Shown in pieces: positions 1 to 41,898 of a stretch of DNA of 64,000 nt. Each line of letters begins with the position of its first letter. The stretch's first letter is position 1. Under the pieces are notes generated by a model, which had not been told where the DNA came from, did no database searches, and worked only from the letters and a program-made list of their open reading frames with translations. Where the stretch lies: NCBI GenBank assembly GCA_025716815.1, contig JAIXMN010000052.1:1-64000 (forward strand), read 5' to 3'. A program made the position numbers and the translations under genes. The DNA is from Dichotomocladium elegans. Lineage: Eukaryota; Mucoromycota; Mucoromycetes; Mucorales; Lichtheimiaceae.

Positions 1-337
1 GTCACGTGGCATGAATGTAAAGATTTTGCATCATGCATATGCACGCTAGAATGACCTGATCCCATCGCCCTCAGGCACATGCCCGCAATGTATGCATATG
101 CATACATTATGTCGCTATGGCCTGACAAGCTCTACATGGCGTGACATATCTTTTACATAACCTCTATGGATATCCAATGTATAACAAAGTATAAATATCA
201 AGCCAGTAATATAGAATAAAGGGTATCTATCGGATCAATCACAATCTTCCGAATTGTCTTAGTGACATTCAGTGTTCTGTGTGAACCCGTCGTTGTCCCC
301 AGCATACAAAAGGATCTCAGTGACCTAGGCAACGACA
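1..337 (+). repeat. 5' LTR of the virus-carrying element (start cut by window)
   Basis: This stretch is identical to 5103-5439. By comparison with the right copy, the LTR begins TGTCGTGG about 21 bases before the window and ends GGCAACGACA. A probable TATA-like and polyadenylation region lies around 185-225 (ATAAATATC, AATAAAGGG). Related LTRs sit at 35282-35621 and 35624-35963. Confidence 0.9.
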
Positions 338-339
338 AC

Positions 340-351
340 TGGTAGCTGATG
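340..351 (+). other. Primer-binding site (PBS)
   Basis: TGGTAGCTGATG starts two bases after the LTR end. The same 12-mer follows the LTRs at 15562, 57940 and, on the minus strand, 31348-31337. It is complementary to a tRNA 3' end of the type CATCAGCTACCA; initiator Met is the usual primer for such elements, but I could not identify the tRNA here. Confidence 0.85.
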
Positions 352-1378
352 GGGACGTGACATGGGAGCCTCATCCATGTAGCGTGACAATCGTACAAGT
401 ATCACGTTGTCAACGTCCATACCTTGACCGGTATGCACTGTTCGAACTACTTCTCCGTCTATCACTTCGACTTTCGGACCCTTTGAACTAATTCTGGATC
501 CTTTTGAACATTTCTTAAAATACTCGTTTAATTGAAAAGCATCAGCGCGTGTGAATGTCATGTACAAGGCATCATCATACAGAGGTACTTGACTTTCAGA
601 ATGAATAACGTCATACTGCATAGAATGACGCACCTCAGAAGTGGTGATAAACCTTTCACCGAACAGCGAATCTTTCATATAGAATCTGTCACTCAACAAT
701 CTCGCGGTATCCTGGGGACACCTTCTTGATATGTTTAGCGTGACCTTCCTATCTATGAAATGTTCTAGATTGGTCGACCACTCCATGGACCTGATGGCTA
801 ACCTATTGATAAATCGAATTTGTAAAGGATCACCCAAGTACACGACCCTCTTGGGTGCTACTAATTGTACCACACGCAATAATTCACCTACTTGACTCTG
901 ATAGCATTCGTCAACGTATAAATCTTCGACATACATTTTCGGTAACCCATTCACCGTCAACGAATCGCATGTTCTCACACGCATGTCAAAATCGAAGGAG
1001 GGAAATGAGTCCGCGTATTTTGCTTTCAATTTGTTTCTTAAATCCGACACTACCTTCCGTGTGGAACCCACGTAGAAATTATTCGGAGAAAAGTTTTGAA
1101 CAGTGAAATGCGTCTTTCCACACCCCGCACCTGCGGAAATCAACACCATTTCAGGCCACTTGAATGTGACATCTCGTTGTAACAAAGAACTAGCTATGTT
1201 TTCATCGTTCATGACGACAGTGAGATCACTCACTAAGACGGCACCAGAGTAATCTAGTGGACCCGACTTTATCTCATGCTTCTTCGTCACCGTATTGAAC
1301 ATGAGTTGGTAACAAGGTCGCTGATTTTTCTCGTCATAAGGAACGTATCCGACGGAATATTTCTTCTCGGTACCGAAA
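352..1378 (-). pseudogene. Endogenous viral element: superfamily 1 helicase part of a virga/tobamo-like replicase
   Basis: The reading frame is open on the minus strand from the MITE edge at 1378 to the PBS. It shows the motif series of alphavirus-like SF1 helicases in the right order: Walker A (GAGCGKT, about 1120-1140), Walker B (VDEC, about 900), GDPLQ (about 830), an SRR motif IV and a TVHTGQG motif V followed by LVRL near 400. The frame ends by running into the PBS and LTR just before the expected motif VI, so the helicase C-terminus and any polymerase are absent. The family function is NTP-driven RNA unwinding and capping-related 5' triphosphatase in viral replication. No stop or frameshift is seen apart from the transposon insertion, so the integration is probably young. 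The exact virus group is inferred. Confidence 0.8.
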
Positions 1379-1747
1379 TACAGGATTTTCAAGAAGAAGT
1401 TTGCCACAGAATTTAGTTGTTCGTATAGACCGTCTAGGTTTTTCGTTTTTTTTTGCTTCAAATTCGAATACAAATTTTAGTATTTCGTTGCTACCCTTTT
1501 GTCAAATTTAAAGGCAATAGCAGCAAGAACATTCCAATCAAGGCTATAGATGAGTCTTCCTTCTCCTCTTTTTACACCAGAATAGTTTTGGGAGGCCAAC
1601 CATTTATGTTTCATTCTAATTTCAAAGGAAGAAGAGAAACGAAATACTAAAATTTGTATTCGATTTTGAAGCAAAAAAAACGAAAAACCTAGACCATCTA
1701 TACGAACAACTAAAATTTGTGGCAAAGTTCTTCTTGAAAATCCTGTA
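1379..1747 (+). mobile_element. TA-flanked MITE, copy 1
   Basis: This belongs to a family of about 370 bp with perfect or near-perfect terminal inverted repeats of about 110 bp, beginning CAGGATTTTCAAG and ending CTTGAAAATCCTG, bordered by TA on each side as for Tc1/mariner elements (coordinates include both TAs). This copy splits the viral replicase frame between linker and helicase. Short ORFs in it are not conserved as coding. Confidence 0.92.
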
Positions 1748-3556
1748 CCTGTCCACTTCTTTACCTAATTTAAAAAACAATATATTAAATCCGGCATTTT
1801 TTTTTTGTGGTGAATCGATATTCGATTTGACTACTTCCTTATTCGGTCCATAGAACATCGTCATGGCTTCTTTGCACATCGTATTATGCTCACAAGCGGA
1901 TGAATCCTTCCTATATACGTAAGCCTCGAAAATCGCTTTGTCGTGGTCTGAAGCCGAGGACTCGTCAAAACACATCATCTTGGCATAGTCCACTTCGCGC
2001 AACGTACTTGATTTTTTAATGTCCGTCATAAACTGCCTAGCATTAGTAACGCTCTCCGGACGGAGTACTGGGAGCCCTATGTCCGAAATTTGTAGTGTTT
2101 CTGGAACTTCAGACAACCCTTTCGAGGACATATCGATATTCTCGTTGTCTTCTCTCAAAGTCACCGAGCTTTGTCTTTCTCGGTTACTGGACACTAAAGA
2201 ATCAACGATAGATTGTAAGTTATTTGCTAAAGATTCGGCGTCCATCGTGGCTCCCGAGGATATATTTTCTCCATCGGTGTCGCAGGTAGTATCAAAAGCG
2301 AATAAGTCATCTACGCACAAATCTTGCACAGCATCATCCAAGATTGAATAGTCTGGCTCCGGATCAAATTTCAAAAGATCCTGAAACCAAGATACGTTCG
2401 TTATGTCTCCATCTTTATAGTGATAAAACCACATCGTCTCGTATGGTGTCAGTGGAACGTTTGCGTATGTCCCTAATGCCTGGGAATCATACAGATTATC
2501 AATGAAGTGGGACATAGTGAAAAACTCAAGCAACATATTTGCCGAAAATATTGAGTCCTTTACTCTATTCAAAATGGCATTTGAAAAACGTTCAGCAAGC
2601 TCTCCCAGTGGGGTATCTCCGGAAAATATCTTTTTAATCTTTTTGTAGAATACTTCTACCGCGAACTTATCCAAAGGCTTACGTTCAAATGCCTTTTGGG
2701 TTTCTTCAAACACTTTATGTACTAGGGTGTTTGTGGCCATCTTTTCCTTCAGGGCTTCTATTAATAAAGCGACGGCTATGGAATCGAAACACTCCGCGGG
2801 GAGTTTTTCAAAGTTTTCGAAAGTTTTTCCGTTAACAACGAACTCGGAATTCAACGTTCTCAAGTATCGTTTCGTAGTAATCAGATACTCGTCATCCGGT
2901 TTCTCTATAGACACCAAATGGTTCTTCACTTGATTAAAAATTATTCGATGACACGATAAAATCAGTGGTTGCACGGGAACACTCGAGTGTCTATCCCAGG
3001 TTTTTGTCAAGACATACGTCTTCAAGAAAACGAAATCGTCTCTGATATCTACCACAGGGGAGTGACGTACCGGTTTAGTACCCAACGGTAGTCTGCGGAG
3101 CGCATACACGAGTACATCTGAAGTGACATACTCATGTCTGTATGCATAAACATACCCTTTATGAACTATGTCTTGCTCAAAGAAGAACTGTCTCAGGGTA
3201 GAGTATTTATAAACGTAATCATTCGCTTCATCTTTATTGTATACTCTCATTTCGTCTCGTTCGATATCAATGATAAAATCTTGTTCGAACATCTCCATTC
3301 TTCCCGAAGAGAACCTCAACATAGATTTCGACATAGCTTCAGCTCCGTACAGCACCTCCACACCTCTAATGTGCATTATCCTGACAAGGCGTTCAATGCT
3401 GTACTCTCGCGCTGTGAACATGGTGATGGCTTGTCTTGCGTTTTCCATGCACAGCTCGGGTGGTCTGAAGCACCGATGTCGCAATCCCGTGTCCTCATAA
3501 AACTCAGGTTCGGGAGCTCCGGTATACGAAAATTCGGCCAAAACAGGATCAGATCC
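1748..3556 (-). pseudogene. Endogenous viral element: C-terminal methyltransferase region and linker
   Basis: One long minus-strand frame runs from the TIR element at 3557 to the MITE at 1747 without stop codons. Its N-terminal part (about the first 200 residues) is compatible with the second half of an alphavirus-like capping methyltransferase: an AIT-FTAREYSIERLVRIMHIRG block followed by a basic and aromatic region, as in the conserved A-HS-YDI-type block of the family. The following roughly 400 residues are acidic and Ser-rich and look like the variable linker before the helicase. The apparent C-terminal tail in the same frame comes from the MITE, not the virus. The methyltransferase assignment rests on gene order and weak motifs; the linker has no recognised domain. 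Confidence 0.65.
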
Positions 3557-4333
3557 AGTTTATCCCTACACATTTCAAATTCAGTCGGAGTTGCCTTTCT
3601 GGGGTGTTTGACTTTAAAAATAAAAATAATTTTAAGGTCAGGCCTGTGCCCAAGAGCAATTCATGTTTTCTAAAATAAAACCACACGTCACAAGCATTTG
3701 CAAATTTTGCAAAATATTAAGTCACGATATCTAAAAAATATTATCAAAACAATAAGCCACATTCAAAAAAAATCTACAAGAGGGACAAGCAAGCAAAAAA
3801 CTCTTAAACTGCTAGACCTATTAATCACAAACTCTATCTTTAGAAACCTATCCTTACTAGATCGTGTATATTAAAGCGCAAATACAGGATTTTCAAGAAC
3901 AAGTTTGCCACAAATTTTAGTTGTTCATATAGACCATCTAGGTTTTTCGTTTTTTTTTGCTTCAAATTCGAATACAATTTTTAGTATTTCGTTGCTACCC
4001 TTTTGTCAAATTTAAAGGCAATAGTAGCAAGAACATTTCAATCAAGGCTATAGGTGAGTCTTCCTTCTCTTCTTTTTACACCAGAATAATTTTGGGAGGC
4101 CAAACATTTGTGTTTCATTCTAATTTCAAAGGAAGAAGAGAAACGAAATACTAAAACTTGTATTTGGATTTGAAGCAAAAAAGTTCTTCTTGAAAATCCT
4201 GTATTGTTTACTGAAAATTTTTTGGGTGGCTTTAACTGTGTTTTAAAGCTGACTGTATTTGAAATTATTTTTTAAAAGTCAAACACCCCAGAAAGGCAAC
4301 TCCGACTGAATTTGAGATGTGTAGGGATAAACT
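3557..4333. mobile_element. Non-autonomous TIR transposon inside the viral sequence
   Basis: The inverted repeats are about 3557-3616 (AGTTTATCCCTACACAT...) and 4274-4333 (...GTAGGGATAAACT), roughly 60 bp each with few mismatches. The core of about 650 bp has no coding capacity and includes a MITE at 3883-4203. The element interrupts the viral methyltransferase frame. I could not define a clear target-site duplication. The family is unassigned, though the length and TIR suggest a pogo/Tc1-type or other small DNA transposon. Confidence 0.75.
3883..4203 (+). mobile_element. TA-flanked MITE, copy 2 (internally shortened)
   Basis: It has the same termini as the copy at 1379-1747 but is about 50 bp shorter, because the right inverted repeat has lost an internal piece near 4177. 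It is nested inside the TIR element, which is nested inside the viral sequence, which sits inside the LTR element. Confidence 0.9.
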
Positions 4334-4981
4334 ACCTTTCAACCCCAAAACAGAGTTCAGTCTGCCAGGATTCTCCCTTAACAGTGTTCGTACATGTTTT
4401 CTCAGAGAATGTTCGGCCCTAGATATGCGGGAATGAGCTCGTGGTATTTGATTATTCGTATCTTCAATGAAGTTACCTTTATCATCTGTGCTCACTTCGA
4501 ACAACGGAAAACAGCAGTGACATTTGAGACCTCTTCTCATAAAGGACTCATAACCCACTCCAAAGGTTAAGAATCTCTCGTTTATGTCCATATGGCGCAC
4601 CAACAAAGCCTCAAGAGTCTGACGCATGACATGACTCTTGGGATGTTGTGTAGTAGCGTATGGTCTATTAGGCCTCTTAGCCATACGATATTGATCGAAC
4701 TTTTGAATGGACGCATCGACTTCATTCGCAAGTTTGTTATCTTTCGACGAGGTAAGATCCTTGAACTTGATATTGTATCCGTCGAAATGTGATATAATCT
4801 CGTCTTTTATGTCCTGACGAGTAGTGGTGACTACTTGTACATCCATAGCATCCACTCTTTTACTCAACAGATTATCTGCATTGGCAGTGTATTGAGCAAG
4901 TATATTATTCATTACGGCATCTTTTTTCTCTTTTTCGAGGAGAGTAGAAAATGCTTGAACGAAGGACTCGGACCCTCCCAT
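4334..4981 (-). pseudogene. Endogenous viral element: N-terminal part of the viral methyltransferase region
   Basis: The minus-strand frame starts at ATG 4981 and stays open to the TIR element. Features include an early NADNLLSKRVDA stretch, an RHMDINERFLTFGVG block and a Cys/His cluster (KCHCCFPLF), in the order expected for the N-terminal half of alphavirus-like capping methyltransferases, where a conserved His and a later DxxR-like segment occur. The start is chosen as the first Met; stops in this frame lie upstream within 100 bp. It is read with 1748-3556 and 352-1378 as the remains of one replicase. Family assignment comes from order and motif similarity only. Confidence 0.65.
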
Positions 4982-5081
4982 GGATCTGATCCCGCCGCCT
5001 CACGAGCTGCAGACCGATGGACTGCTGCTACAAATTCATTGTTATTGCTCGAGGACGACCAAGAGTTTCGGGAGAGGGAAT
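4982..5081 (+). other. 3' internal remnant of the LTR element with polypurine tract
   Basis: About 100 bp separate the viral frame from the right LTR. The end, GGGAGAGGGAAT at 5071-5082, is a typical polypurine tract next to a TGTCG LTR start. The preceding bases are probably the retroelement's own 3' internal region; the exact virus-retroelement junction lies somewhere in 4982-5060. Confidence 0.7.
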
Positions 5082-5439
5082 TGTCGTGGACTGATCGTGC
5101 GAGTCACGTGGCATGAATGTAAAGATTTTGCATCATGCATATGCACGCTAGAATGACCTGATCCCATCGCCCTCAGGCACATGCCCGCAATGTATGCATA
5201 TGCATACATTATGTCGCTATGGCCTGACAAGCTCTACATGGCGTGACATATCTTTTACATAACCTCTATGGATATCCAATGTATAACAAAGTATAAATAT
5301 CAAGCCAGTAATATAGAATAAAGGGTATCTATCGGATCAATCACAATCTTCCGAATTGTCTTAGTGACATTCAGTGTTCTGTGTGAACCCGTCGTTGTCC
5401 CCAGCATACAAAAGGATCTCAGTGACCTAGGCAACGACA
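5082..5439 (+). repeat. 3' LTR of the virus-carrying element
   Basis: 358 bp, TGTCGTGG...AACGACA, identical to the left LTR where comparable. It ends 61 bp from the 3' end of the tRNA-Tyr gene on the opposite strand. Confidence 0.92.
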
Positions 5440-5500
5440 GAGGCGCAGTTTGCCAAAAGAGATTGCTCAGCCAGAGGCTGTGACACTTGTCACAAATACA

Positions 5501-5583
5501 TCCGAGCTGCCAGATTCGAACTAGCGACCTAAAGATTACAGATGAACTACAGTCTTCCGCTCTACCAACTGAGCTAAGCTCGG
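5501..5583 (-). tRNA. tRNA-Tyr (anticodon GTA) with intron
   Basis: A cloverleaf can be drawn: acceptor CCGAGCT/AGCTCGG (7 bp), D stem GCTC/GAGC, anticodon loop with GTA after CT, T arm GCTAG-TTCGAAT-CTGGC and discriminator A. An insert of about 10-11 nt directly after the base 3' of the anticodon is the usual eukaryotic tRNA-Tyr intron. An A box (TAGCTCAGTTGG) and a B box (GTTCGAATC) are present. No CCA is encoded. Its first 14 nt are part of the target-site duplication of the neighbouring LINE. Confidence 0.93.
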
Positions 5584-10958: not shown

Positions 10959-13340
10959 TTACGCTGTGATTCTGCGTGCTAATGGAATAACCAGGATCTT
11001 TGAAGTTGCAGAGTTTTGCTGCTGACCATATGCAACAATGGCAACTTGGGAAAAGATTCTATGTATGGGTAAGATGCAATCGCGGTCTTCACTCATAAAG
11101 CTGTTGCGCCATTCCTCAAGACCTTCGTCGGCAAAGCGCTGTGTTGAAGCATGGGTACGATACCAATGGACAAATGCGAAGTAGTGGACGGTCGGAATGC
11201 GGTTCACAACAAGGACGTGACGAAAGTAAAATTGTACTTGACCAGTCCAGGCAACAACACGGTTACTTGTGTCAAGAAACAATGCCTGTATGTGCGAACC
11301 ACGGATTGAGCGAGCTGTTGCTGATTGGTACGTTTGCCCGAAGATCTCGCTGGTTCTAAATTTCTCAATCTCAGGCAAAACGTATGACGCCGGCCTGCAT
11401 GCTGCATAGTTCAGATACCGAACTTCTTCCTCTCCATAGCTGGCCTGGTAAAACTGGACCAGCAGTTCGTAGGTAATGGTGCCGAGTAAGTTCGCTTTTT
11501 TGCCATCACGCATTGACGCAGCTGTATCCGGTGGGATTGGTTCCGATCCAAAGACATTGACTGCTGGGTCTGTGGATAAAGCCGCAAACGTAAGTGGCTC
11601 GAAATGGGGATGGACTGCTTGCTGCTGGAGTGTGCGAGATTGACCAGCAATCTTCAAGAGTAAGCGCAACTCAAGATTCCTACCGGAAAAGCGCCTGGCC
11701 TCACGATGAACGAAGTCGACTGCGCTGGTCTTCTCGATAAAGCGCTTCATAAAAGTAAGCTCTAAAGAGTCCTTTTGGTTCGTTGCTGCGGCTTTCATGA
11801 ACCCGTTATATCGTTCGAAGCTGAATAGCCAGAACGCATAGACAGGCCCAAAATCCTCGATCACTTCGCATAAGTGCAGATGTAGATGCATATTAGGCGT
11901 GATGATCTCAGGACCATATATCCACTCGCACCCGTGCACAAAATGCTCGAGGAACCCATGCGCCTCATCAATATCGGCGTATGTGATCGTCGTTTTCGCG
12001 AGGATTCGGCAGGCAGAAACAAAGTCCATCCAGTTCTTGAACTCGGCTCGAGGCAGGAAATTCTTCAAAACGAATGGTGAATATACCAGACACCATGCTT
12101 TCCAGTCGTCAGCTGTCATGAAACCAAATTTGCGATCGATTTTGCGTTGCAGCGAAGGGATACCCGGTGGCAGCACGACACCGTCGGCCAATTTCTGCAT
12201 TTGGGCTCCAATGGTGTCATTCAGTAGCCCGCGCGTCCTCCATACATGCACCATCCGGTCAGCAGTTCCCAGGAAGCAATTGTGCATAACATCGATGACT
12301 GTGCCTTGTACTGGATCGAAATAGGCAAGCCTGTGAATTTCCGACCATCGCATTCCTGTTGATCGTTCGATGTCATAGCACTCTGAAGGCGATGTCGCTG
12401 TACGCCAACGCTCAGCAGCGTATGCATTATCAGCCTTGGTCCTTAATGGGTCGAGGATTTGGTACCCAGAATAGTCAAGCTTCGTAGTGTCAGGGAAAAC
12501 ACGGAACTCGCGCGTACATTTATGACATGCTCGCGTGCTGGCATGCGAAGTAAATCCACCAACCTTTCGCCCAGCAGGAATGTCACAAGCGATGTTGAAC
12601 AAAGCTGCTCGAATGATTGCGCCATTGGGTTGTTGGAATGTTGGGATCATAATGCCGCGAAAGAGTGGGAGAAGATCGTCAATGAGCGGTTTCAGGTAGT
12701 GGTTCACCTCGTATGTACTCGGCTCTTTTGGTCCAGGCATCACACCAAGAAGGATTACATTCTCTGTTTTATAGCGGTCGGCATGAGGCAAATTGTTTAC
12801 CACAAGGTATATGGCACCGCAAGAGTACCCAGAATCAAAAGGAGCAAACCTATCGACGTTTAAGGTCAACATCAAGGAACGGCCGTCTCGAACAAATGGT
12901 TGGTTGATATCGTTGGGGTCCTTCAATGCACGCCACGCCATGCCGTCGTATACGTCATGGAAGATACCATTCTGCGTGTTCCGAAGTTGCCACTGTGTGA
13001 TCTTGGTCTCGAAATCATGTCGTAAAAAGAGCTTTTTTAGGCTCTGAGCAAGCGGGTAGTATGCATACTGCTTGATGGGTACAGGCTGGTTGCTTGACGT
13101 CAATTTACACAGCTGTGCACCACACAGTGTCCCATTCATCTGGTGGCTCTGCTTCGTGCATGTCTGAGGACCGGGTTGCAGAAAGATACCATGGCATACA
13201 GGACATGCACTATACATCCGAAGGTCATCGATAAGACTCTCGAATCCAATCCATCTTTTCCAGCCGGCGATTGTGTCAGGAAGAGTATTCTGTTGCGCAA
13301 TGGCTCCGAGACTGACTAGCAACATGGTGACAAAACTGAT
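10959..13340 (-). CDS. CACTA transposase (Tnp2-like)
   Basis: A 788-codon frame from Met 13325. It contains paired Cys motifs (CPVCHGIFL...C; CHKC in the middle), a conserved VQGTVIDVMHNCFLGT block typical of Tnp2 transposases, and FWLFSFERYNGFMK in the C-terminal third, also typical. Its role is cutting and joining of the element ends in the nucleus. No internal stop or frameshift is seen. The frame is open a little upstream of this Met, so the true start may be in an upstream exon (splice acceptor-like TTCCAG near 13376). The gene is on the minus strand, with its 3' end 46 bp from the convergent accessory gene. Confidence 0.85.
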   Translation of the reverse strand: MSFVTMLLVSLGAIAQQNTLPDTIAGWKRWIGFESLIDDLRMYSACPVCHGIFLQPGPQTCTKQSHQMNGTLCGAQLCKLTSSNQPVPIKQYAYYPLAQSLKKLFLRHDFETKITQWQLRNTQNGIFHDVYDGMAWRALKDPNDINQPFVRDGRSLMLTLNVDRFAPFDSGYSCGAIYLVVNNLPHADRYKTENVILLGVMPGPKEPSTYEVNHYLKPLIDDLLPLFRGIMIPTFQQPNGAIIRAALFNIACDIPAGRKVGGFTSHASTRACHKCTREFRVFPDTTKLDYSGYQILDPLRTKADNAYAAERWRTATSPSECYDIERSTGMRWSEIHRLAYFDPVQGTVIDVMHNCFLGTADRMVHVWRTRGLLNDTIGAQMQKLADGVVLPPGIPSLQRKIDRKFGFMTADDWKAWCLVYSPFVLKNFLPRAEFKNWMDFVSACRILAKTTITYADIDEAHGFLEHFVHGCEWIYGPEIITPNMHLHLHLCEVIEDFGPVYAFWLFSFERYNGFMKAAATNQKDSLELTFMKRFIEKTSAVDFVHREARRFSGRNLELRLLLKIAGQSRTLQQQAVHPHFEPLTFAALSTDPAVNVFGSEPIPPDTAASMRDGKKANLLGTITYELLVQFYQASYGEEEVRYLNYAACRPASYVLPEIEKFRTSEIFGQTYQSATARSIRGSHIQALFLDTSNRVVAWTGQVQFYFRHVLVVNRIPTVHYFAFVHWYRTHASTQRFADEGLEEWRNSFMSEDRDCILPIHRIFSQVAIVAYGQQQNSATSKILVIPLARRITA

Positions 13341-13501
13341 GAGGACGTTCGCCGCCCGCTCAGATTAATGGTGCAGCTGGAACAGGACAAGGAAGAGAAA
13401 TATGAACGGCAAAGGATGTGTAAGGAAGTCCTACGGGGTAGATGTAGGTGTGTCTGTTGTCTGCTTGTGATTGAGAGACCTTATTAATAGGGCATTAATT
13501 T

Positions 13502-15657: not shown

Positions 15658-16623
15658 ATGGATTCAGAGCAAGCCCAAAACAATCAACCCAACCTCACCC
15701 TCGAGCAACAAGTGCTCATGTCAGTCATGCAGTCCCTGCAACAGGTCCTGCAGCAGCAACAACAGCAAAGTCAGCAAATCGCTGCAATGCAAAACTCCCA
15801 AGTGGGACCCGACCAAGGCCAACAGGCAACCCCACGAAGTAGCCGTTCGCTGGTGCAAGCACTAAAGCCCACCAAACCGGATGTCTTCCGAGGCGAACGT
15901 ACATCTCAAGCAGTTGAGGCGTGGCTGTATACAGTCCAGAAGTATTGTGAGTTGGCGGAAATCGACGACGACCATCAGATGGTGCTTTTCGCGGTGACTC
16001 TGCTACGCGATGGTGCCATCGCTTGGTGGCGACAATTGGAGGCAGAACTCGACCTGGAAACCCCCAGCACCTGGGCAGAATTCTGCCGGGCTTTCCGGAA
16101 AGAGTTCAAGCCTGAGAACTCTGAACAGCTGGCCCTTCAACGCCTACAACAACTGGAACAGAAAACAACAATCGAAGCTTACATCCGTGAGTTTCGTAGC
16201 ACGATGTTGGAGTTACCAAACATGGACACCCGGGATGCAATGTTCATCTTCACGCAAGGCCTCAAGTACCATGCGCGTCTCCAAGTGCTGATCCAAAAGC
16301 CAACCACGCTGCATCAGGCCTACAAGTTCGCGGAATCATATGAGGCCGCACAACAATGTGCAAAGGGTCTGCTACCATCCCGCTTCACTGTACCATCGGT
16401 CCCCGGACAAGGATTTGCGGCGCGCAATCAAGGCTATATCCCGCAAACTCCATCACCCATGGATCTCGATGTCGTCGCACCTACAAGCAGGACGTCCCGG
16501 CAGCCAAACATCTGATGCTTCAAGTGTGGCTGCATCGGACACATCAAGCGAGAATGTCGTCAACAGCAAGACCGTGCTAAACAAGACTCCAAGTCGCAGG
16601 GTTTTGGCACTGCGCGTACATAA
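15658..16623 (+). pseudogene. Gypsy-1 Gag with an in-frame stop before the zinc knuckle
   Basis: Met 15658 opens a 285-codon frame with a Gln-rich N-terminus, then the retrotransposon Gag core (FRGERTSQAVEAWLYTVQKY; DGAIAWWRQLE; EFCRAFRKEFKPENSEQ). A TGA at 16513-16515 interrupts it; the same frame then continues with CFKCGCIGHIKREC, a CX2CX4HX4C zinc knuckle, and ends with TAA at 16621. The Gag core forms the particle and the knuckle binds RNA. The stop may be an inactivating mutation or a readthrough site. Pol follows in a different frame. Confidence 0.85.
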
Positions 16624-16694
16624 GCAAGGGGGAACGTACGCGCGACCTTGAACATCCCCTTAACAAGGAAAAACGGTCGCTGGAGAATCGGGGG

Positions 16695-19600
16695 ATGGTT
16701 CACAAGGGTCCGACAGACAAGGATTCTCCAGTGGGGCTGGTCGAAACTCATCAGGAAAAAGACGAACCTGCAATGTGTATAACTCAAGACTTGCAGGATA
16801 CTCCAGGTGACAGACTGATGAGCGCAACTGAGGGTGACCAGCACGGTGATGATGCAGCTCCAAAAGCTCTCACCGAGGAGCAACAGTTGCGAAAAGATTA
16901 TTGTTACTTGGAAGGACTCTTCACCTGCAGCGGAGGCGAATCTTTGCCGTTGTATGGCGGCAGATGTGGAAATAAGCAAATACTGGCGCTAATCGATACG
17001 GGAGCGAGCACAAGTTACATTTCGCCCAGATTATGCAAAGGACTTAAGATATTCGATATCGAAGCGCGGGAAGTAGAAACTACCGGCAGACACAAACTAA
17101 TAATTTCCAAGAAGGCTAAGGTTCCATTCACCTTATCAGGATGTTTCATGACAGTCGAAGCATACATCCTGGAGACGAAGTTCGACATCATCCTTGGAAG
17201 GAATTGGCTGGCAGGATATTCACCGATAGCTGACTGGACAACTGATACTTGGACGATCAAGATCGATGGCAAGACACATATACTACGACCTGAGCGTTAC
17301 CTGGGAGACTCAGGGGTACGATACCTACTATCACACAAGCAAGTCAGCAGAGCAATCCGCAAGAACGAGGTACAAGAATTGCTCATGTTACACTTACTGG
17401 AGGCTGACATCCAGTCAAAGGAAATCCCTGAATCCATGCAGGTGCTCATAGACGACTACCAAGATGTCTTTCGTGATGAGCTACCTGGCCTACCCCCAGA
17501 AAGAAAAATAGAACATGTTATTGACACGGGCGACGCAAAACCCATTGCAAGACCACCGTTCAAGATGTCACCGTTGGAGCTCAACGAACTACGCCGACAA
17601 CTGGATGAGCTCCTACAACTAGGTCTGATTCAACCAAGTGCTTCACCTTGGGGGGCCCCGGTATTATTCGTTAAGAAGAAAGACGGGAGCATGCGCATGT
17701 GCATTGATTATCGTGCGTTAAACAAGGTGACAATTCGTAACCAGCACCCATTGCCAAGGATCGACGAATGCCTGGAACGATTACAAGGAGCATCTTTCTT
17801 TACAAGTCTCGACCTCAAGAGCGGCTATCACCAAATCCGCATTAGACAAGAAGATGTTCCTAAAACGGCATTTAATACCTGGTACGGCCAATTCTCTTTC
17901 CTTGTCTTACCGTTTGGCCTGTGCAATGCCCCGCCCACGTTTCAAAGCTTAATGAATAAGGTCCTCGGCGAATACCTCGATCGCTTCGCACTGGTGTATC
18001 TAGACGATATCCTAATCTTCAGCAAGTCCAAGGAGGAACACCAGGAACACGTTCGTCTGGTATTAGAAAGATTGCGCGAAGCCAAACTGTATGCAAACAT
18101 CAAGAAATGTGAGTTTGGCAAGTCGGAAGTGCACTTTCTAGGATTCCGAGTGTCTGCCGAGGGTATTAAGCCGGCCCAAGACAAGATCAAGGCGATTCAG
18201 GAATGGGAACCACCTACTAATGTCCAGGAAGTCCGCCAGTTTGTTGGTTTGGCACAACATTATCGTCGGTTCATACCATCATTCGCAAGCATTGCGGCAC
18301 CTCTGACTGACCTCACAAAGGGTACTGGCCTGAAGAAACGTGCAATCACATGGTCCGACGCGTGTCAAGCCAGTTTTGAATTGATTAAGGAAAAACTGAC
18401 AACTGCTCCTGTACTCCGACCGCCGGACCCGAGTAAGCCTTATCGGGTAGAGACAGATGCATCCGATGTTGGTATTGGCGCAGTGCTGTTGCAAGAAGAC
18501 TCGACGGGCGCGTGGCATCCCCTGGCATATGAGTCGAGGAAACTCTCTGCAGCAGAACGCAACTATCCTGCCCAAGAGAGAGAGTTGCTAGCCATTTTGC
18601 ATGCGTTGAGAACTTGGCGTTGCTTCATCGAAGGCCGCGATTACGAAGTCTTGACTGATCACCACATGCTCAAGTACCTCTGCTCTCAAGCAAAGCCGAC
18701 TCCACGACTCGTACGATGGATGAATGAGCTTGAGTTGTATGACCCCAAGATCAACTACAAGCCCGGCAAAGACCACGATGCCCCGGATGCCCTCTCGCGC
18801 AAGTCTTACCATGCAAGCCCTAACGAGGAAACTTTGGAACCCGAGTTCCTTTACGTTGCAGCCGCTAGCATACCTGAAGCGCACCGACAAGACTGGCCAA
18901 GTTATTACATTTCCCAACCGGACGACCTTCCCCAAGTTGTACAAGAATTCCTCGAACAAGAAAAGGAACATTTCGTAATAACTGATGGGAAGGTATATCG
19001 CAAATTAAAAACCAAGGATGCAACTGGTAGTGAAGTGACCAAAGAAGTCCGCTTTCTCCCATCTGCGAAGCGCGCCGACACAGTAAAGACCTTCCACGAT
19101 GGATTCGGCCATGTAGGCAAGGCTACAGTGTTCGAATTGATGAAATTCCGATATTGGTGGCCGACGATGCGAGCTGACATCCAAGAATGGCTCAAGACGT
19201 GTCCCTCTTGTCAAATGAGCAGTCGACGTTCCTGTGCCCACCAAGATGTTATGCATCCACTCGACGTCCCTCCTGCTTTCGTTGGCTGGCACCTTGACTT
19301 TATCGGCGAACTTCCCAAAACTGTACGAGGAAACTGGTGGATATTAGTGGCCGTCGACTATATGACCAATTATCCAATCGCTCGTGCTGTACCTGTTGCA
19401 TCCGGCAAGGCTGTCGCTGACTTCCTGTATGAAGAAATCGTAATGCGTTTCGGCTGTCCCAAGGAGATCTTGACCGATCGTGGTGCAAACTTCATGAGCA
19501 ACGTCTTACGACATTACACGCAACGCATTGGTATCAATCACAAGCTCACGTCCGCGTTTCACCCACGCACCAATGGCAAGTGCGAGTGCCTGAACGGCAC

Positions 19601-20091
19601 CCTCAAATCTATGTTACGAAAATACGTCAATGATGCTCTCCACCTATGGGACGATTATCTCGACGCAGCTCTTTTTGCCTGCCATGTGCGGACACATGCT
19701 ACCACGGGTTTCAGCCCTTTTTACATGACTTATGGCCGCGAACCTGTTCTGCCCGGCGACCCCCTTCGCCCTTACATATCCGACGACGCGCTTAAGGACC
19801 CACGCGTTATGGCAGAACTGACCGCCCAAGAACTGGAAAAGCTGAATCAAGTCCGTGCTGCTGCTACTGCTCGCATGCAAGCCGTTAGCCAGAAAGACAA
19901 GGATCGCTGGGACCAGGCCTTGAACATTGTTGACTTCGATATTGGCGAATTTGTTAAGCTAACCCATGAAGGACGTTTTGGACTCGAACCGCAGTATAAA
20001 GGACCTTACGTTGTCATTGCGAAGAATCCCGACTATGGTACGTATCAGCTCGAAATGCTGCAAGGTGTGCCCCTTGCTTCATGGGTCCATG
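16695..20091 (+). CDS. Gypsy-1 Pol (protease, RT, RNase H, integrase), C-terminus lost
   Basis: One open frame of more than 1100 codons. Aspartic protease: [13 protein letters not shown] near 16990. [20 protein letters not shown] (17671), [36 protein letters not shown] (17993; catalytic DD). RNase [16 protein letters not shown] (18451). Integrase: zinc-binding H-x3-H...C-x2-C near 19095-19215 and a DDE core ([34 protein letters not shown] with the Glu). It has no stop codons until it runs into the hAT sequence at 20092; the last residues of the frame are hAT-derived. The start Met is uncertain and Pol is probably made by frameshifting or as a separate ORF. Confidence 0.9.
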
Positions 20092-20316
20092 TAGGGTTTC
20101 TCATCGAATCCGGATCTTATGATCCGATCCGGATCAAAAGGCAATGGTGCGGATTCGGATTGACCTCATCTCGGATTTTGTGGATCCGGTGTAGGACATT
20201 TGCAATCCGGATCTCATACGGATTGCACTTCACGGATCTGAACCGATCTGGATCGCATACAGATTGCACTTCGCGGATCTGTTCCGATTCGTTAGATCTG
20301 TCCAAATCAACCTAGA
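20092..20316 (+). repeat. hAT left terminal and subterminal repeats
   Basis: Terminal TAGGGTTTCTCAT followed by many GGATCY/GATCCGG and GGATTGCACTTC repeats. The counterpart is 29500-29675 in inverted orientation. Subterminal repeats are usual transposase-binding regions in hAT elements. Confidence 0.75.
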
Positions 20317-32928: not shown

Positions 32929-33846
32929 CATCCAATGACGAGATAGCCAGTCTTAATCGATTTTTTCTTTTCGAAAAGAACTGCGCAAGGTTTGCGTTCT
33001 GCTGTTGCATTCCTCTTATCTCATTATTGTCTCCTGCGCGGCGAATCGGCTCGCATGGCGGAACTTCCAGATTTGCAGACTGTTCAGCTAGAACATGAAG
33101 GTCCATGCCCATGTCCAGCTTTAATTCTCGTTATGAAACGGGGGAAAACGAATGCATTTGGTCGATTGGAAATCGGTGCCTGTCTACGCAGTTCAAGAGT
33201 GGAAATATGTCCATTTATGGCTCTAGGATTCTACTTTTTTTACCGATTCCATATCGAAGGCGAGCCGTTTCCAGAAATGATTCAAAATCAAGACTGGTTC
33301 GACCATAAAATCCTGAAACACGGTAGCGATCCTAAGAAGCAGTGGACCTATGACAGTCACTGCAGCTCCTTCGATGAAGCCTTCAAGGCATACAACATCA
33401 AATCATTGAAGAAAACGCATGTTGCCAGAGGAGCAGGGGCAAGAATGGCCGATCTCAGTGGCGTTTCAGAAGACGAAATACGACGTATGGGAAGATGGAA
33501 TAACAGCACCATGAATGGTGCTTATCTTACTGGACTACCGAGAGACATCATGAGGAAAGCAGCCGGTTTTGTGCATGGGCAAGGCACCTACTATGTCCCT
33601 CGTGCAACATTTATTCCTCCGGAGTCACTCCAACAAAAAGTATTCCCTACTGTGTCGATTCGTTTGCATCAGCTGCGAGAAGGTGTGGCTAATCAGACAG
33701 TCTGCGCCGATGGTTTCTTACGCCTGATGGTTCAACTGCAGATCAGCTTCCTGCAAGACTCAGTGTTGATGCAGCGCCACCATCCAGGACATCCTATTTT
33801 CTCGGACAAGTTGTTTCAAGATCCTGAATATTTAGAGTTCAAGAGG

Positions 33847-34215
33847 TACAGGATTTTCAAGAAGAAGTTTGCCACAAAGTCTGGTTATTGGTATAGACCG
33901 TCTAGGTTTTTCGTTTTTTTTGCTTCAAGTTCGAATATAAATTTTAGTATTTCGTTTCTCTTCTTCCTTTGAAATTAGAATGAAACATAAATGGTTGGCC
34001 TCCCAAAACTATTCTGGTGTAAAAAGAGGAGAAGGAAGACTGATCTATAGCCTTGATTGAAATGTTCTTGCTGCTATTGCCTTTAAATTTGACAAAAGGA
34101 TAGCAACGAAATACTAAAATTTGTATTCGAATTTGAAGCAAAAAAAAACGAAAAACCTAGACGGTCTATACGAACAACTAAATTCTGTGGCAAGCTTCTT
34201 CTTGAAAATCCTGTA
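33847..34215 (-). mobile_element. TA-flanked MITE, copy 8
   Basis: Full-length copy, opposite in orientation to copy 7, between the recombinase core and the GCR1_C-like part of the Crypton gene. Its left TIR carries several mismatches (AAGTCTGGTTATTGG), making it the most diverged copy. Confidence 0.92.
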
Positions 34216-36655: not shown

Positions 36656-36995
36656 TGTCGTATTCGTAAATCTGTGCTGGTAATCCAATAGCCAGAATAT
36701 GGAAATAGACGTATAGCCCTTTTACTGATAGGAGATAAGAATATATGATATGTCCTTTATTCATGTAAGTCGAAGGGGATATTTATACTATTCTATAATG
36801 TGTAAAAGCGCAGCATGCGCAGCATGATGATAACGATGACAAGATGTGCGCAGCAAGCGCAGCAAGCGCAGCAATTATGTTGCACAGCGTTAAGGCTGTT
36901 GCTGAGCAATGTGTAACCAAAAGGAAAATGACAAGTGTCATGTGCGCCAAGAGTAATGTTGCGACACGACACAACGACACAAGACAACTATGACA
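36656..36995 (+). repeat. Probable solo LTR next to tRNA-Gln
   Basis: TGTCGTATTCG...CAACTATGACA, 340 bp. It has LTR-like ends and a GCGCAGCAA tandem motif at 36839-36874. It ends 6 bp from the 3' end of tRNA-Gln. No target duplication found, so the call is tentative. Confidence 0.4.
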
Positions 36996-37001
36996 AAATA
37001 A

Positions 37002-37073
37002 AGGTCTCGCCGAGGATCGAACTCGGATAATGAGATTCAGAGTCTCATATGCTAGCCATTACATCACGAAACC
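37002..37073 (-). tRNA. tRNA-Gln (anticodon CTG)
   Basis: Cloverleaf: acceptor GGTTTCG/CGAGACC with one G-T pair, anticodon arm TGAGA-CTCTGAA-TCTCA, T arm CCGAG-TTCGATC-CTCGG, discriminator T. No intron. A run of A/T (TTTATTTTG on the minus strand) follows as Pol III terminator. Its first 14 nt (plus-strand 37060-37073) recur at 42244-42257 as the LINE target duplication. Confidence 0.95.
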
Positions 37074-37242
37074 ACTCTCTTTCCGATACTCCTCACTTTT
37101 TTTGGAATTAGAGTTTAAAGCCAAAGTGACAACAACAAACGACAGTAATAGCATCATCCATCCGCGCATCCCATCCATCCGTCGCTGCAGCATCAGCGAC
37201 ATCATCCATCCGTCCTCAGACAACAGCAAAAAGAGCCGTACC

Positions 37243-38361
37243 ATGGTGGATTTCGACTTCTCCATGGATAAAGTGGATTTCTTGGGTGGACCGACTCATC
37301 CATCCACGCCCTCATCCATCCGTCCGAAGAACCGGGTGCCAGACCTCCTCGCGACCATTGCGCGGCTTGAACGCACCGTTGCGAGCCTCGAAGCGAAGTT
37401 AGAGGCGATGGAGCTGCGTCAAGCAGCTTTCACCCCTCAAAACTCTGCCGCCCCCATGATCAGTGCTTCTCCTGCCGACCCTGCTGGACAAGCACGTGAT
37501 CCAGTCACGAAACGCCCAAGCAAGGGCAAGAAACCTGCTGGCCCCACCTCACGCCTGACCACCACCCCTGCCTCCGCCCAGAAAATTACGTCTGTTGCCC
37601 CCACAGCAGCAGTAAAGGATACCTCCACTGCTGCATCCTCGTGGGCAACAGTGACCGCCAAACACTTGCCCCCTCAGGGCAAGAAAAAAAAGACCACCAA
37701 GAAGCCCGCCAAGACCCAGGCCGTGAGGGCTTTTCAGGAAGCGTCTGGCCCTTCGCAGTACACATTTGTGTACATCCCCTGCCGCCGCCACCTCCGCCAC
37801 CACGAAGTACGGCAAATGCTTGCCGTGCTGAAGATCCCACAATCCCGCGTCCTTGACATACAGTTCCCTGCAAAGGGAACTGTTGCACTGCTGGTGCATA
37901 CCGCCTTCCACGACGAGCTTGTGGAAAAACTCAAGGTGGACGGGGTAAACCCCCGTCAGTCTTTTGACCCTCTCGCTGCCGAGATTGTTGGTAACACTGA
38001 GCATGCCAACAAACCCGCCGCCGAACGCGCCTTGTTGGCAAAATCCATTTTTGCCAATCGCATGCTGCGATCATGCGCGCGTATGCCAAGACCTTTGGGC
38101 TACAGTGTAGCCAGATTCTTCGCCTCCCCTGCCGCCGCCAACCTCCAACTTGACGATGCTTGGTGGAAGAAGTTCCTTGCAGAACGGACCCCCGCCAAGT
38201 TGACCAAGAACACCACCGCCACCACCACCAACAACAACAACAACACCACCATCCGCACCACCACACCACCCTCGACAGACGTTGTCATGGACTTCGACCT
38301 TGACATCGATCTCGACATCCCGACCGCCACGCCATCATCTGGTTCTGACTCTCAGCAATGA
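37243..38361 (+). CDS. LINE-A ORF1 protein
   Basis: 372 codons from ATG 37243 in the context ACCATGG. A coiled-coil-like helix (LLATIARLERTVASLEAKLEAMELR) follows a short N-terminus, then a Pro/Thr/Lys-rich linker with KKKKTTKKPAK, then a folded part (YTFVYIPCRRHLRHHEVRQM, LDIQFPAKGTVALLVH) that may correspond to an RNA-binding fold. The C-terminus is Thr/Asn-rich and acidic. ORF1 proteins of LINEs bind element RNA. The upstream 5' UTR (37140-37240) holds repeated CATCCATCCG units. The stop overlaps the ORF2 start in ATGA. Confidence 0.75.
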   Translation: MVDFDFSMDKVDFLGGPTHPSTPSSIRPKNRVPDLLATIARLERTVASLEAKLEAMELRQAAFTPQNSAAPMISASPADPAGQARDPVTKRPSKGKKPAGPTSRLTTTPASAQKITSVAPTAAVKDTSTAASSWATVTAKHLPPQGKKKKTTKKPAKTQAVRAFQEASGPSQYTFVYIPCRRHLRHHEVRQMLAVLKIPQSRVLDIQFPAKGTVALLVHTAFHDELVEKLKVDGVNPRQSFDPLAAEIVGNTEHANKPAAERALLAKSIFANRMLRSCARMPRPLGYSVARFFASPAAANLQLDDAWWKKFLAERTPAKLTKNTTATTTNNNNNTTIRTTTPPSTDVVMDFDLDIDLDIPTATPSSGSDSQQ

Positions 38362-41300
38362 GTAGTCAAGAACGGATCAAAATCGCCACCCTCAACATCC
38401 GCAACATCCGTCATAACCTGGTAAGCGTGATAGAAGCCTGTGTGAATGAAAATGTTGACATCCTCTTCCTCTGTGAAACCTACTTTCGCCGTGGCAAACT
38501 TCGGTGCGCCTGGACTCAATTCCACAACTACGCCGAGCATAATGCGATTCACAACCGTCATGACCGCTTTGGCCTGTCCTTCCTGATCCGCCCCTCCTTC
38601 CCCTACGAGGTTCGTCTGCTTCCTATTCAGAACGGTGAGTCCCTGTCACTGAAAGTTGGGCCCTATACACTGCATGGTCTATACTTGCCGCCTTCGCTGT
38701 CACCAGAGGAGGCTGCTCAGAGGTATAGTTCTCTGTCCATGGATCCATATACAATTGTACTTGGGGACTTGAATGTGCGGCTTGGGAGTTTAACAGGTGA
38801 TTCTCGTTTTACACCCAACCGCCACCATGCACTGAGGGAATGGTTGTGCACACACGACTTAACCTTGTGGAATGCTGAGTTGGCATTTGGTCAACCTACG
38901 TTTGCTACGGTAGCGCGGACTCAAGCTGCTGCGTCGGCCTCTGAGGATGGCTCCAATTTGAAAACGAGCATCATTGATTATTTTATCTCGATGCGCGACC
39001 ACTTGCTTGATCCGGCCATGGTCATTCACACCGGCCTAGGCATATCGGATCACCACTTGTGTGAGCTGTCATTTGTGCCCGTCAATATGCGACGGCTTCC
39101 CGCTGTGCCAGCAATGCGTCGGTCATGGCGTCTTCAGCGTCTCAAAGCGCAGGAGGTGCAAGACTCGTACTCTGACCAGTTTGACGAGGCTGCAGGTCCT
39201 CTTCTGGAAGACATCCAATCTGCTATCGATAAAGACAACAACATGCCGTTGAGCCCTGAAGTACTGGAAGGCTTCGTGCAGCGTCTCAATGAGGCATTGT
39301 ACACTGCCTTGGACAAGAGTGTAGGGCGCACTCGTCCCCGTCTCGACAGCCACAAGTGGTTTTGGAGCAGCCGTCTTCAGCACCTTGACAACAGTAGAAA
39401 AAAGTGGGCCTCACAGCTCGCTCGTTCTCGTCATGGTATCGAACGCATTACGGCCCACCGCGAATGGCTTGCTGCGTGTGCAGCATTTCGGAAAGCGGTA
39501 CGGGCTGCTCAGCGGCAATCCTGGATTGACTTTTGTCAGCAGCTGCAAGCTGATCCTACAGAAATGACGGCCGCGGTGAAACGGATGCGCATGCGCCAAC
39601 GCACCAACGTCACGATTTCGTCTCCCGAGGGACCGTTGCAGGCTGCCAACGACATGGCGTCCCATTTGGAACGAGTGTTCGGCGGGTCTGTGGCACCTCG
39701 TGTCTCACCGGGCAGCAATGTCCACCGAGAACCCCCTCCGTGGAATGTAGGCGACATTCGTCAAGCGCTCAACGATCTACCCAATCGAAAAGCACCAGGC
39801 GTAGACCACATTAAGGCGGAAATGCTCAAGCCCATTGCACCGACTCTCACTCCCTTTCTGGATGGCATATTTACCCTTTGTTGGCGTCTGGGGTGGTCTC
39901 CTCTCGCCTGGCGGACTGCGCAAGTGGTTCCGATTTACAAAAACAAGGGCCCACTGCGGATCCAGCCAACTTTCGGCCGATTAGTTTGACGTCGGTCTTT
40001 CGTAAACTCCTTGAACGGTGTTTGCAGCCTTCGTTGCTCTATTCCATGCCGATTCTCGATGTTGCGCAGGGTGGTTTCCGAGCACATCGAGGCACGTTGG
40101 ATCAAGCGGCTTGCCTCCATGAGTTGATGCAAGCATATTCGCGCCAAGAGGGATCGGAGCAGATTCCTCCTGTTGTTGTCTTTTTGGATATCAAGGCTGC
40201 GTATGACAGTGCCAATCGGCTTGTTATATGGGATTCGCTCCGTCACTTTGTGGCGGCGCCTCTGCTCGCGCTACTTCAGAACCTCTTTGACGACATTGTT
40301 GTCACGGTGATCCACATGAATGTAGCATCCCGGGAAATTCACCCCAGGCACGGTGTACTGCAAGGAAGTATTTTATCTCCTTTTCTTTATTCTATTTTCA
40401 TTGATTCCCTTCCGCGCCTTTTGCGGTCGGTTTCAACATCTCCTCATCTTGTGCGTGTACCTTCCCCTCCTTCTTCCCGATCCCTCAATTGGAGCTCAAG
40501 GCGACCTTTTACTTTTAACACCGCTCATGCTTCTCCCCGTTCTCTTATTGACGACTTACGCGACCCCTACAATCCTTATCTTATCCCCGCCGACCTTGAG
40601 CCTGGGACTGGGACCCCTTCTTCTTTTGTTCCGATCAATTGCTTGCTGTATGCGGATGATGTAGCCCTTGTGGCACGCACCACTCGCGATATGCAGCATC
40701 TGCTGTTGGCCGCCGAACAACACTCGAATCTCCTTGGATATCGATGGAACCCAACAAAGTGTGAGGTCCTGAATGCGCCGCCTGATTCAGAATTTTGTCT
40801 CTACGAGACGCCGATCCCCACTTGTTCAAAATTCCGATACCTTGGTATTCCGTTTTCTCGCCATGGGATTGACCGCGGCTTGCTTGTGGAACAGTCTGCT
40901 CTACGGGCTTTCGCAGCAATGCGTCAGCTTCGGGGTCTGGCGTACATATGTATGGCTTTGGCATCTCCTCGGCTCTTAGGGCGTACAAGATCTTTGTGCG
41001 TCCCGTGATGGAGTATGGTCTTCCTATTTCTTTCTTTGGTGTCAAAGAGCTCTCGACGTTGGAGGAGACGCAGCGGCAGTGTCTCCGAATGGCCTTGTGC
41101 CGTTCACCGACTGAGAAGGCCCTCGGCACTATTACTATTCAACTGCTTGCAGCGCTTCCCCCTATGTACCTTCGTTATCAAATTTTGCAAACGAAGTTTA
41201 TTCTTCGTGCACGCACACTTCCGCGCAGTACACTATTTGCCTGTATGTTCCCGCAGCTCTGCCGTGCTCCCCTGAGCGAGGCCCGTTGGTTCCCCCTTCG

Positions 41301-41898
41301 GCGCAATGCACTCTGGAAGCACGTTCGGACACTCATTATGGGGCCTGACCCCCCCAAAGAGCCTGTGCCGATTGCAGTGGCGAAAGCCATGCAAACCCTC
41401 ATTGACAAGTTAATCGCCACGCCAGACAAGTATGTTACAGTGAAGCGAGGAATTTGTAAACCTGCTTGGGATCCAACTCTCTTGTTGCCGTGCACCAGAA
41501 AGGAACGTCATCGCTTGGTCAAGTGGCGTCTGGCCTGGTTGCCTCCAACACCGTCAGTCGACTGCCAGTGTGGTTGCCCTCGGGCAAATCGGGATCATTT
41601 CTCTACATGTCCTCTTTTACAAGAGCATCTTCGGTCGTTTCGTTGGTCTCTTTCTACCCTGATTCCGGATCCCCCCGCTGGTCTGAACGCCATCGACGCC
41701 GCTCTGAATCTTCTCCCAGCCAAAGTGCCTCGAAACTTGAAAAAGTGGCACACACTCTGGCCGGCTCTTCTTTCTCTTTTAAAACTTATTGATGAACTCA
41801 CCTCCTCCACTCCTTTTACAGACGAACCTCCACCTGGTCTTCTTCTTCTCGAGGCCTCACAGAACCTCACTCGCAAAATCCCGCACCCCGTTTAGAAA
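38358..41898 (+). pseudogene. LINE-A ORF2 (APE-type endonuclease and reverse transcriptase), two frameshifts
   Basis: ATG at 38358 overlaps the ORF1 stop (ATGA). Endonuclease: IATLNIRNI (38373), DILFLCETYF (catalytic Glu), VLGDLNVRLGS (38756), GISDHHLCEL (catalytic SDH, 39040). RT: NDLPNRKAPGVDHIKAEML (39772), FLDIKAAYDSAN (40183), HGVLQGSILSPFLYSIFID (40350), LLYADDVALVAR (40645, catalytic DD), FRYLGIPFSRHG. C-terminal CQCGCPRANRDHFSTC motif near 41563. Frames change near 39945 and near 40950; otherwise it is well preserved, so the copy is recently dead or the breaks are sequence errors. Confidence 0.88.

Follow-up and report, generated by a model that had tools for sequence, protein, structure and literature searches.

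A Ty3/gypsy Element of Dichotomocladium elegans Carrying an RNA-Virus Replicase Segment Between Its Long Terminal Repeats

Results

Anatomy of the Element

The window analyzed here comprises the first 64,000 bases of contig C71 (75,610 bp; GenBank JAIXMN010000052.1) of the Dichotomocladium elegans assembly (39.4 Mb, 122 contigs). An rDNA stretch of this assembly gave the impression of an early-diverging fungus. Its first 5439 bases are a single long terminal repeat (LTR) element of a Ty3/gypsy family, in which nearly all of gag-pol is replaced by three antisense pieces of a viral-type replicase gene, parted by two later transposon insertions (Table 1). Paired LTRs with TG...CA ends, a primer-binding-site (PBS)-like stretch and a polypurine-tract (PPT)-like stretch are all present, the complete 3′ LTR starting with TGTCGT and terminating with ACGACA. 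Because base 1 of the window is also base 1 of the contig, the contig lacks the initial 21 bp of the 5′ LTR together with the left flank and the left copy of the target duplication. The PBS-like sequence ACTGGTAGCTG (338–348) and the PPT-like sequence GGGAGAGGGAA (5070–5080) are placed as in related elements of the genome, and positions 1–337 and 5103–5439 are identical at 337 of 337 bases, with 0 differences. The identical LTRs, PBS and PPT described in a first-pass annotation, made from the letters of this DNA alone, were thus all recovered.

Both LTRs of this chimeric element carry C at one column where 18 of 18 other aligned LTRs carry T, and the next-closest LTRs show two differences per 357–358 bases. 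The private base together with the lack of mutual differences indicates that the two LTRs, judged from their sequences, form a true pair; an origin of the LTRs from separate insertions was rejected, the private base being common to both. The 95% upper bound on LTR divergence, obtained by arithmetic from 0/337 differences, is ∼0.9%.

The Two Junctions

At the left junction, DNA homology to the relatives stops at 351–352 in eight stretches, all eight viewed base by base, exactly where the first-pass annotation had set it (351). At the right junction, homology restarts at 4979–4988 in 11 stretches (seven viewed base by base). CATGG is found here in both the element and its relative and is followed by ATC in the chimera versus TA in the relative shown, the two being identical onward. 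The sequence at ∼4987–5081 is 93–97% identical to seven places in the genome and 83–84% identical to four more. Both junctions are internal to one contig, and viral sequence is joined directly to element sequence on either side. The interior had been described as free of gag-pol, which holds for nearly all of it, but the gag ATG (349–351) persists, as do 95 bp at the end of the interior pol frame (4987–5081). The restriction of the remnants to these two supports replacement of a gag-pol interior.

Table 1. Features of the chimeric element and its right flank (window coordinates).
Feature	Position	Strand	Basis
5′ LTR, first 21 bp lost to contig start	1–337	+	Identity to 5103–5439
PBS-like stretch and gag ATG (349–351); leftmost element bases end here	338–351	+	Comparison with eight relatives; end of blastn homology
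Viral-type superfamily 1 helicase coding piece, truncated	352–1378	−	Viral_helicase1; PDB chains; single copy
Insert A, TA-flanked miniature transposon	1379–1747		Copies 96–98% identical; ends compared
Viral coding piece between the methyltransferase-like and helicase parts, no known domain	1748–3545	−	Open frame; single copy
Insert B, inverted-repeat transposon, with nested insert-A-type copy (∼3880–4205)	3546–4344		98.8–98.9% identity to L075
N-terminal viral replicase piece, weak methyltransferase similarity	4345–4981	−	Vmethyltransf below cut-off; open frame; single copy
Right junction zone	4979–4986		CATGG at 4979–4983 common with relatives
Interior pol frame, final 95 bp, including the polypurine tract (5070–5080)	4987–5081	+	Identity to relatives
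Complete 3′ LTR, 358 bp	5082–5439	+	LTR comparison
GAGG, expected right copy of a 4-bp target duplication	5440–5443		4-bp duplications in relatives
tRNA-Tyr gene, 3′ end towards the element, 61 bp away	5501–5583	−	Probable insertion target

The Viral Segment

The three antisense pieces amount to ∼3.46 kb together. The stretches submitted to the tools were 352–1374, 1751–3559, and 4334–4999, the latter two including a few bases of insert B or of the element, and the pieces flanking the inserts were analyzed as they stand and never joined. One antisense frame is open throughout each tested stretch (1023, 1809, and 666 nt), while the remaining five frames hold 3–52 stops, and none of 2000 base shuffles per stretch kept that frame open. 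This is in agreement with the earlier statement that the viral frames contain no stops apart from the transposon insertions.

The helicase piece matched the Pfam family Viral_helicase1 at 62.6 bits (cut-off 21; E = 6.2e-17). Searched against the PDB at E ≤ 1, it returned three chains only, 6jim ("helicase," E = 4.4e-9), 7y38 ("Protease nsP2," E = 1e-8), and 5wwp ("ORF1ab," E = 0.055), and there was no cellular helicase among the matches up to E = 1. We take the 6jim and 7y38 chains to be alphaviral. Similarity of the frames to viral proteins, which had been left to be checked, was therefore found in this piece. The genome as a whole yielded four matches to Viral_helicase1, of which only the one at this locus covers most of the domain (profile positions 2–208 of 228); two others barely reach the cut-off, over the last ∼50 profile positions. 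The identity of the piece as a helicase is firm. The piece is truncated near the end of the helicase, after motif V and before the final helicase motif.

The N-terminal piece, with its earliest in-frame ATG at 4981–4979 (antisense), scored 12.8–13.7 bits against Vmethyltransf, below the cut-off of 27, a suggestive match; it is a putative methyltransferase, likely mainly by virtue of its position. No Pfam family was matched by the middle piece. Hence, of the ∼3.5 kb of antisense methyltransferase-linker-helicase sequence claimed initially, the helicase stands, while the methyltransferase remains under the cut-off and the middle is without a family. No RNA-dependent RNA polymerase (RdRp) family of Pfam was matched in the three pieces, and RdRP_2 was found nowhere in the genome, though the 14 control genomes of that search were equally silent. 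NCBIfam gave no match above cut-off, and a plasmid scan with the helicase piece gave none. Close viral relatives were confirmed for none of the three pieces in a scan of viral contigs from IMG/VR, a collection that is probably poor in such RNA viruses. Single-sequence structure prediction reached a mean predicted local distance difference test (pLDDT) value of 30.6 for the helicase piece and 35.3 for the N-terminal piece, too low to be informative. The insert is a truncated replicase in which no RdRp was found, and it most likely has no present function; no working protein is expected from a truncated helicase in a gene twice interrupted.

When used as DNA queries against the assembly, the three viral stretches each proved to be single copy, and only the element tail matched 11 other places. 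The proposal that the element is a mobile, non-autonomous carrier of viral sequence was rejected as unsupported, since the assembly contained no second copy; this bears on its mobility and not on its status as an LTR element. The chimera may never have moved since the event that made it.

Relatives of the Element in the Genome

A search of the genome with the LTR gave at least 43 matches, ranging in identity from 100% down to 74% (40 of 64 candidates scored). Two relatives, L045 (contig C46) and L046 (contig C55), possess uninterrupted gag and pol frames of 402 and 1178 aa (stop to stop). In L046, Pfam recognized a Ty3-type capsid and a CCHC knuckle in the gag frame, and protease, reverse transcriptase, RNase H, and integrase, in the Ty3 order, in the pol frame. 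The LTR pairs of these two relatives are identical at 358/358 and 357/358 bases, indicating that the family was recently active.

A 4-bp target duplication was observed in 8 of 13 other family insertions whose flanks were compared; in the five lacking it, an LTR is truncated or the LTRs are only 86–94% similar to those of the chimera. The right flank of the chimera reads GAGG, its left counterpart being located beyond the contig start. The LTR start (up to two mismatches) was located at 21 places, including the 3′ LTR of the chimera, none of them at a contig end (the nearest ∼0.7 kb away), and so none supplies the lost left flank.

Other arrangements were encountered in the same family. The L050 insertion (C45:206264–209953) has a 4-bp target duplication, yet its LTRs come from two subfamilies (∼94% alike, judged via the match of each to L046), and it bears an internal deletion; conversion or recombination after insertion is perhaps responsible for the mixed LTRs. 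The halves of the elements at C69:71588–82925 and C73:60490–70197 are parted by ∼5.9 kb and ∼4.3 kb of other sequence, respectively.

Insertion Site

The tRNA-Tyr gene situated 61 bp past the 3′ LTR, its 3′ end facing the LTR, is the probable insertion target. Among 17 family insertions examined, including the chimera, five lie downstream of a tRNA gene within 61 bp (34–61 bp), with the 3′ end of the gene facing the element. These are L002, L046, the C69 and C73 elements mentioned above, and the present one (window 5440–5583). A sixth has a tRNA gene at 393 bp, the 3′ end also facing, and the other 11, one of which (L059) is almost flankless on one side, have no tRNA gene within 600 bp. In dictyostelids, Skipper-2 and TRE3 are described as being targeted in a similar way to positions downstream of tRNA genes (PMC5006619, available text).

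Later Transposon Insertions

Insert A belongs to a set of at least 40 copies of full length, 40 of 308 candidates having been scored; the others are 96–98% identical to it (best 98.1%). Insert B has inverted ends, is 98.8–98.9% identical to L075, and matches six other places at 99% over 319 bp. It is bounded by an 8-bp duplication, CCAAAACA, at 3538–3545 and 4345–4352. This repeated sequence is viral, which implies that insert B entered once the virus was already DNA; insert A likewise arrived after the sequence had become DNA. An insert-A-like copy sits nested in insert B.

Elsewhere in the window, an open frame at 32947–33972 contains an NDC10_II domain (E = 2.4e-53) and has an end resembling the translation of the miniature transposon; we presume it to be possibly a Crypton-like recombinase. 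A Tnp2 transposase, two more gypsy-type pol frames (one with a chromodomain), and a LINE-like (long interspersed nuclear element) unit were recognized at 10959–13364, 16581–20315, 36994–41895, and 50710–53274, and these mark the contig as repeat-rich.

Discussion

Origin of the Chimeric Element

The proposal of the first-pass annotation that an LTR element captured a segment of an RNA virus as its interior is upheld by junctions lying in one contig, by a true LTR pair, and by relatives with gag and pol, which reveal what was replaced. Most probably, the capture came about by a reverse transcriptase (RT) switching template from the element to viral RNA and back to the element, the chimeric cDNA then being integrated normally. 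An alphavirus-like positive-strand RNA virus would have infected an ancestor of the host during replication of a Ty3/gypsy element. The RT, while making element cDNA in the particle, would have left the element template beside the PBS and the gag start and copied ∼3.5 kb of viral RNA, corresponding to the 5′ part of the replicase from near its start codon to within the helicase, before re-joining the element template inside the final ∼100 bp of pol. The product, LTR–PBS–viral insert–PPT–LTR, would retain the ends required by integrase and could have been integrated beside the tRNA gene by enzymes provided in trans by intact relatives, the two DNA transposons jumping into the viral part subsequently. 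What is retained (LTRs, PBS, and PPT) is what reverse transcription and integration need, and what is lost can be supplied by relatives; template switching therefore fits best.

The antisense orientation of the insert would fit a switch onto viral (+)RNA during plus-strand synthesis or a switch onto viral (−)RNA during minus-strand synthesis, the sequence being compatible with both. Read along the plus strand of the DNA, the insert complements viral (+)RNA, and so a plus-strand switch would use genomic RNA, while a minus-strand switch would need (−)RNA.

Several observations weigh against this interpretation. Neither the left flank nor the target duplication on that side is contained in the contig, and no reference virus was found that would show the end of the viral RNA or any microhomology at the left junction. 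There is no tRNA gene inside 61 bp in 12 of the 17 family insertions. Two transposon insertions look many for so young an element (0/337 LTR differences), an objection tempered by the near copies of both transposons being 98–99% alike. The Viral_helicase1 model also matches 12 of 14 bacterial and archaeal control genomes, in 10 of them above cut-off. Passing the cut-off is thus in itself no proof of viral origin, and the viral assignment rests on the score and the PDB matches jointly.

Alternatively, viral cDNA could have replaced the interior of a complete, resident LTR element through end joining or recombination following DNA breaks. The tRNA site and the paired LTRs would look the same in that case, and the short shared stretch at one junction also suits end joining. 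The identical LTRs, however, allow little time for such a replacement, and it would have to be coincidence that one break fell immediately inside the PBS and the other immediately ahead of the PPT, the regions preserved by reverse transcription. This origin is considered unlikely.

It is very unlikely that the viral segment started out as an ordinary endogenous viral element whose transcript the LTR element subsequently took up. In that event, inserts A and B might be older than the capture, and the identical LTRs would be reconciled with the two insertions. Such an order of events is opposed by the open frames, by the occurrence of each viral stretch just once in the assembly, and by the junctions, where no other host DNA separates viral from element sequence.

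An assembly artefact, in which viral sequence was misjoined between two LTRs at a contig end, is hardly credible: the contig does start within the 5′ LTR, but both element-virus junctions are inside it, the LTRs have a private base in common, and the viral part holds genomic transposons, one with a target duplication, which is impossible for free viral RNA. Just as improbable is a host or transposon gene of non-viral nature as the source of the foreign frames; the sub-threshold methyltransferase match, the matchless middle piece, the want of a close viral relative, and the helicase matches in control genomes would suit it, but the helicase score is three times the Pfam cut-off, viral helicases of the nsP2 type lead the PDB matches, among which no cellular helicase appears at E ≤ 1, and no other genomic match to the family covers most of the domain.

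Comparison With Known Systems

The nearest counterpart is eBxnv-1 of Bursaphelenchus xylophilus, a single-copy nodavirus RdRp inside a Bel/Pao LTR element whose 132-nt LTRs are identical, for which its authors proposed copy-choice in reverse transcription (PMC5177903, available text). In both loci, positive-strand RNA virus sequence is found inside one LTR pair with identical LTRs, a PBS, and a PPT, in single copy. As far as the available account of eBxnv-1 goes, that element keeps a degenerate pol, whereas the chimera described here has lost nearly all of gag-pol; the rest of its family consists of fragments and isolated LTRs, whereas uninterrupted relatives exist here; and Bel/Pao and a nodavirus are involved there, in contrast to Ty3/gypsy and an alphavirus-like virus, antisense to the element, here. 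One earlier natural case and one experimental case are cited in the same text (PMC5177903). According to the accessible part of PMC5563155, virus-derived superfamily 1 helicases are also carried by insect LINEs. The likeness lies in the helicase of an alphavirus-like virus carried by a retrotransposon; there, however, the LINE protein includes the helicase, which is kept in many Lepidoptera families, whereas here it is antisense, truncated, and single copy (PMC5563155).

Recombinants between a retrotransposon and an RNA virus (lymphocytic choriomeningitis virus and the intracisternal A-particle, in mouse), with integrated viral cDNA, are reportedly the subject of Geuking et al. 2009. The likeness is the recombination of retrotransposon and RNA virus that leads to integrated viral cDNA; the difference is that theirs was, according to the citing text, an experimental mammalian system with no inherited locus. 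Tanne and Sela 2005 is said to concern RNA-virus sequence in a plant genome (potyvirus, grapevine) and thus differs in its plant host.

None of the titles and abstract openings surveyed, in a literature that left most subscription papers outside, described a fungal case of RNA-virus capture between LTRs, and the available portions of PMC3136472, PMC8554740, and PMC2805616 mention no further case of LTR capture. Viruses related to Virgaviridae have been reported in two arbuscular mycorrhizal fungi (PMC7482067, available text).

Significance

The locus is a clear and apparently single case of a rare, already known route of RNA viruses into genomes. For RNA viruses lacking reverse transcriptase, the route into a genome usually has to be deduced from faint traces; at this locus, the family of the donor element, the two switch points, and the site of insertion are all readable, and the identical LTR pair dates the event as late. 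The locus is therefore a good specimen for studying strand choice and junction rules in RT template switching. Antisense RNA to the ∼3.5-kb replicase gene, driven by the LTR, might in principle provide a putative heritable small-RNA immunity, a chance antiviral memory kept by selection; Piwi-domain matches on three contigs of the genome make an antisense small-RNA role possible, but such a function is judged improbable. The chimera suggests that integration remains possible for a Ty3/gypsy element after the loss of nearly all of its coding sequence to a virus, and it records the presence of an alphavirus-like virus in this fungal host.

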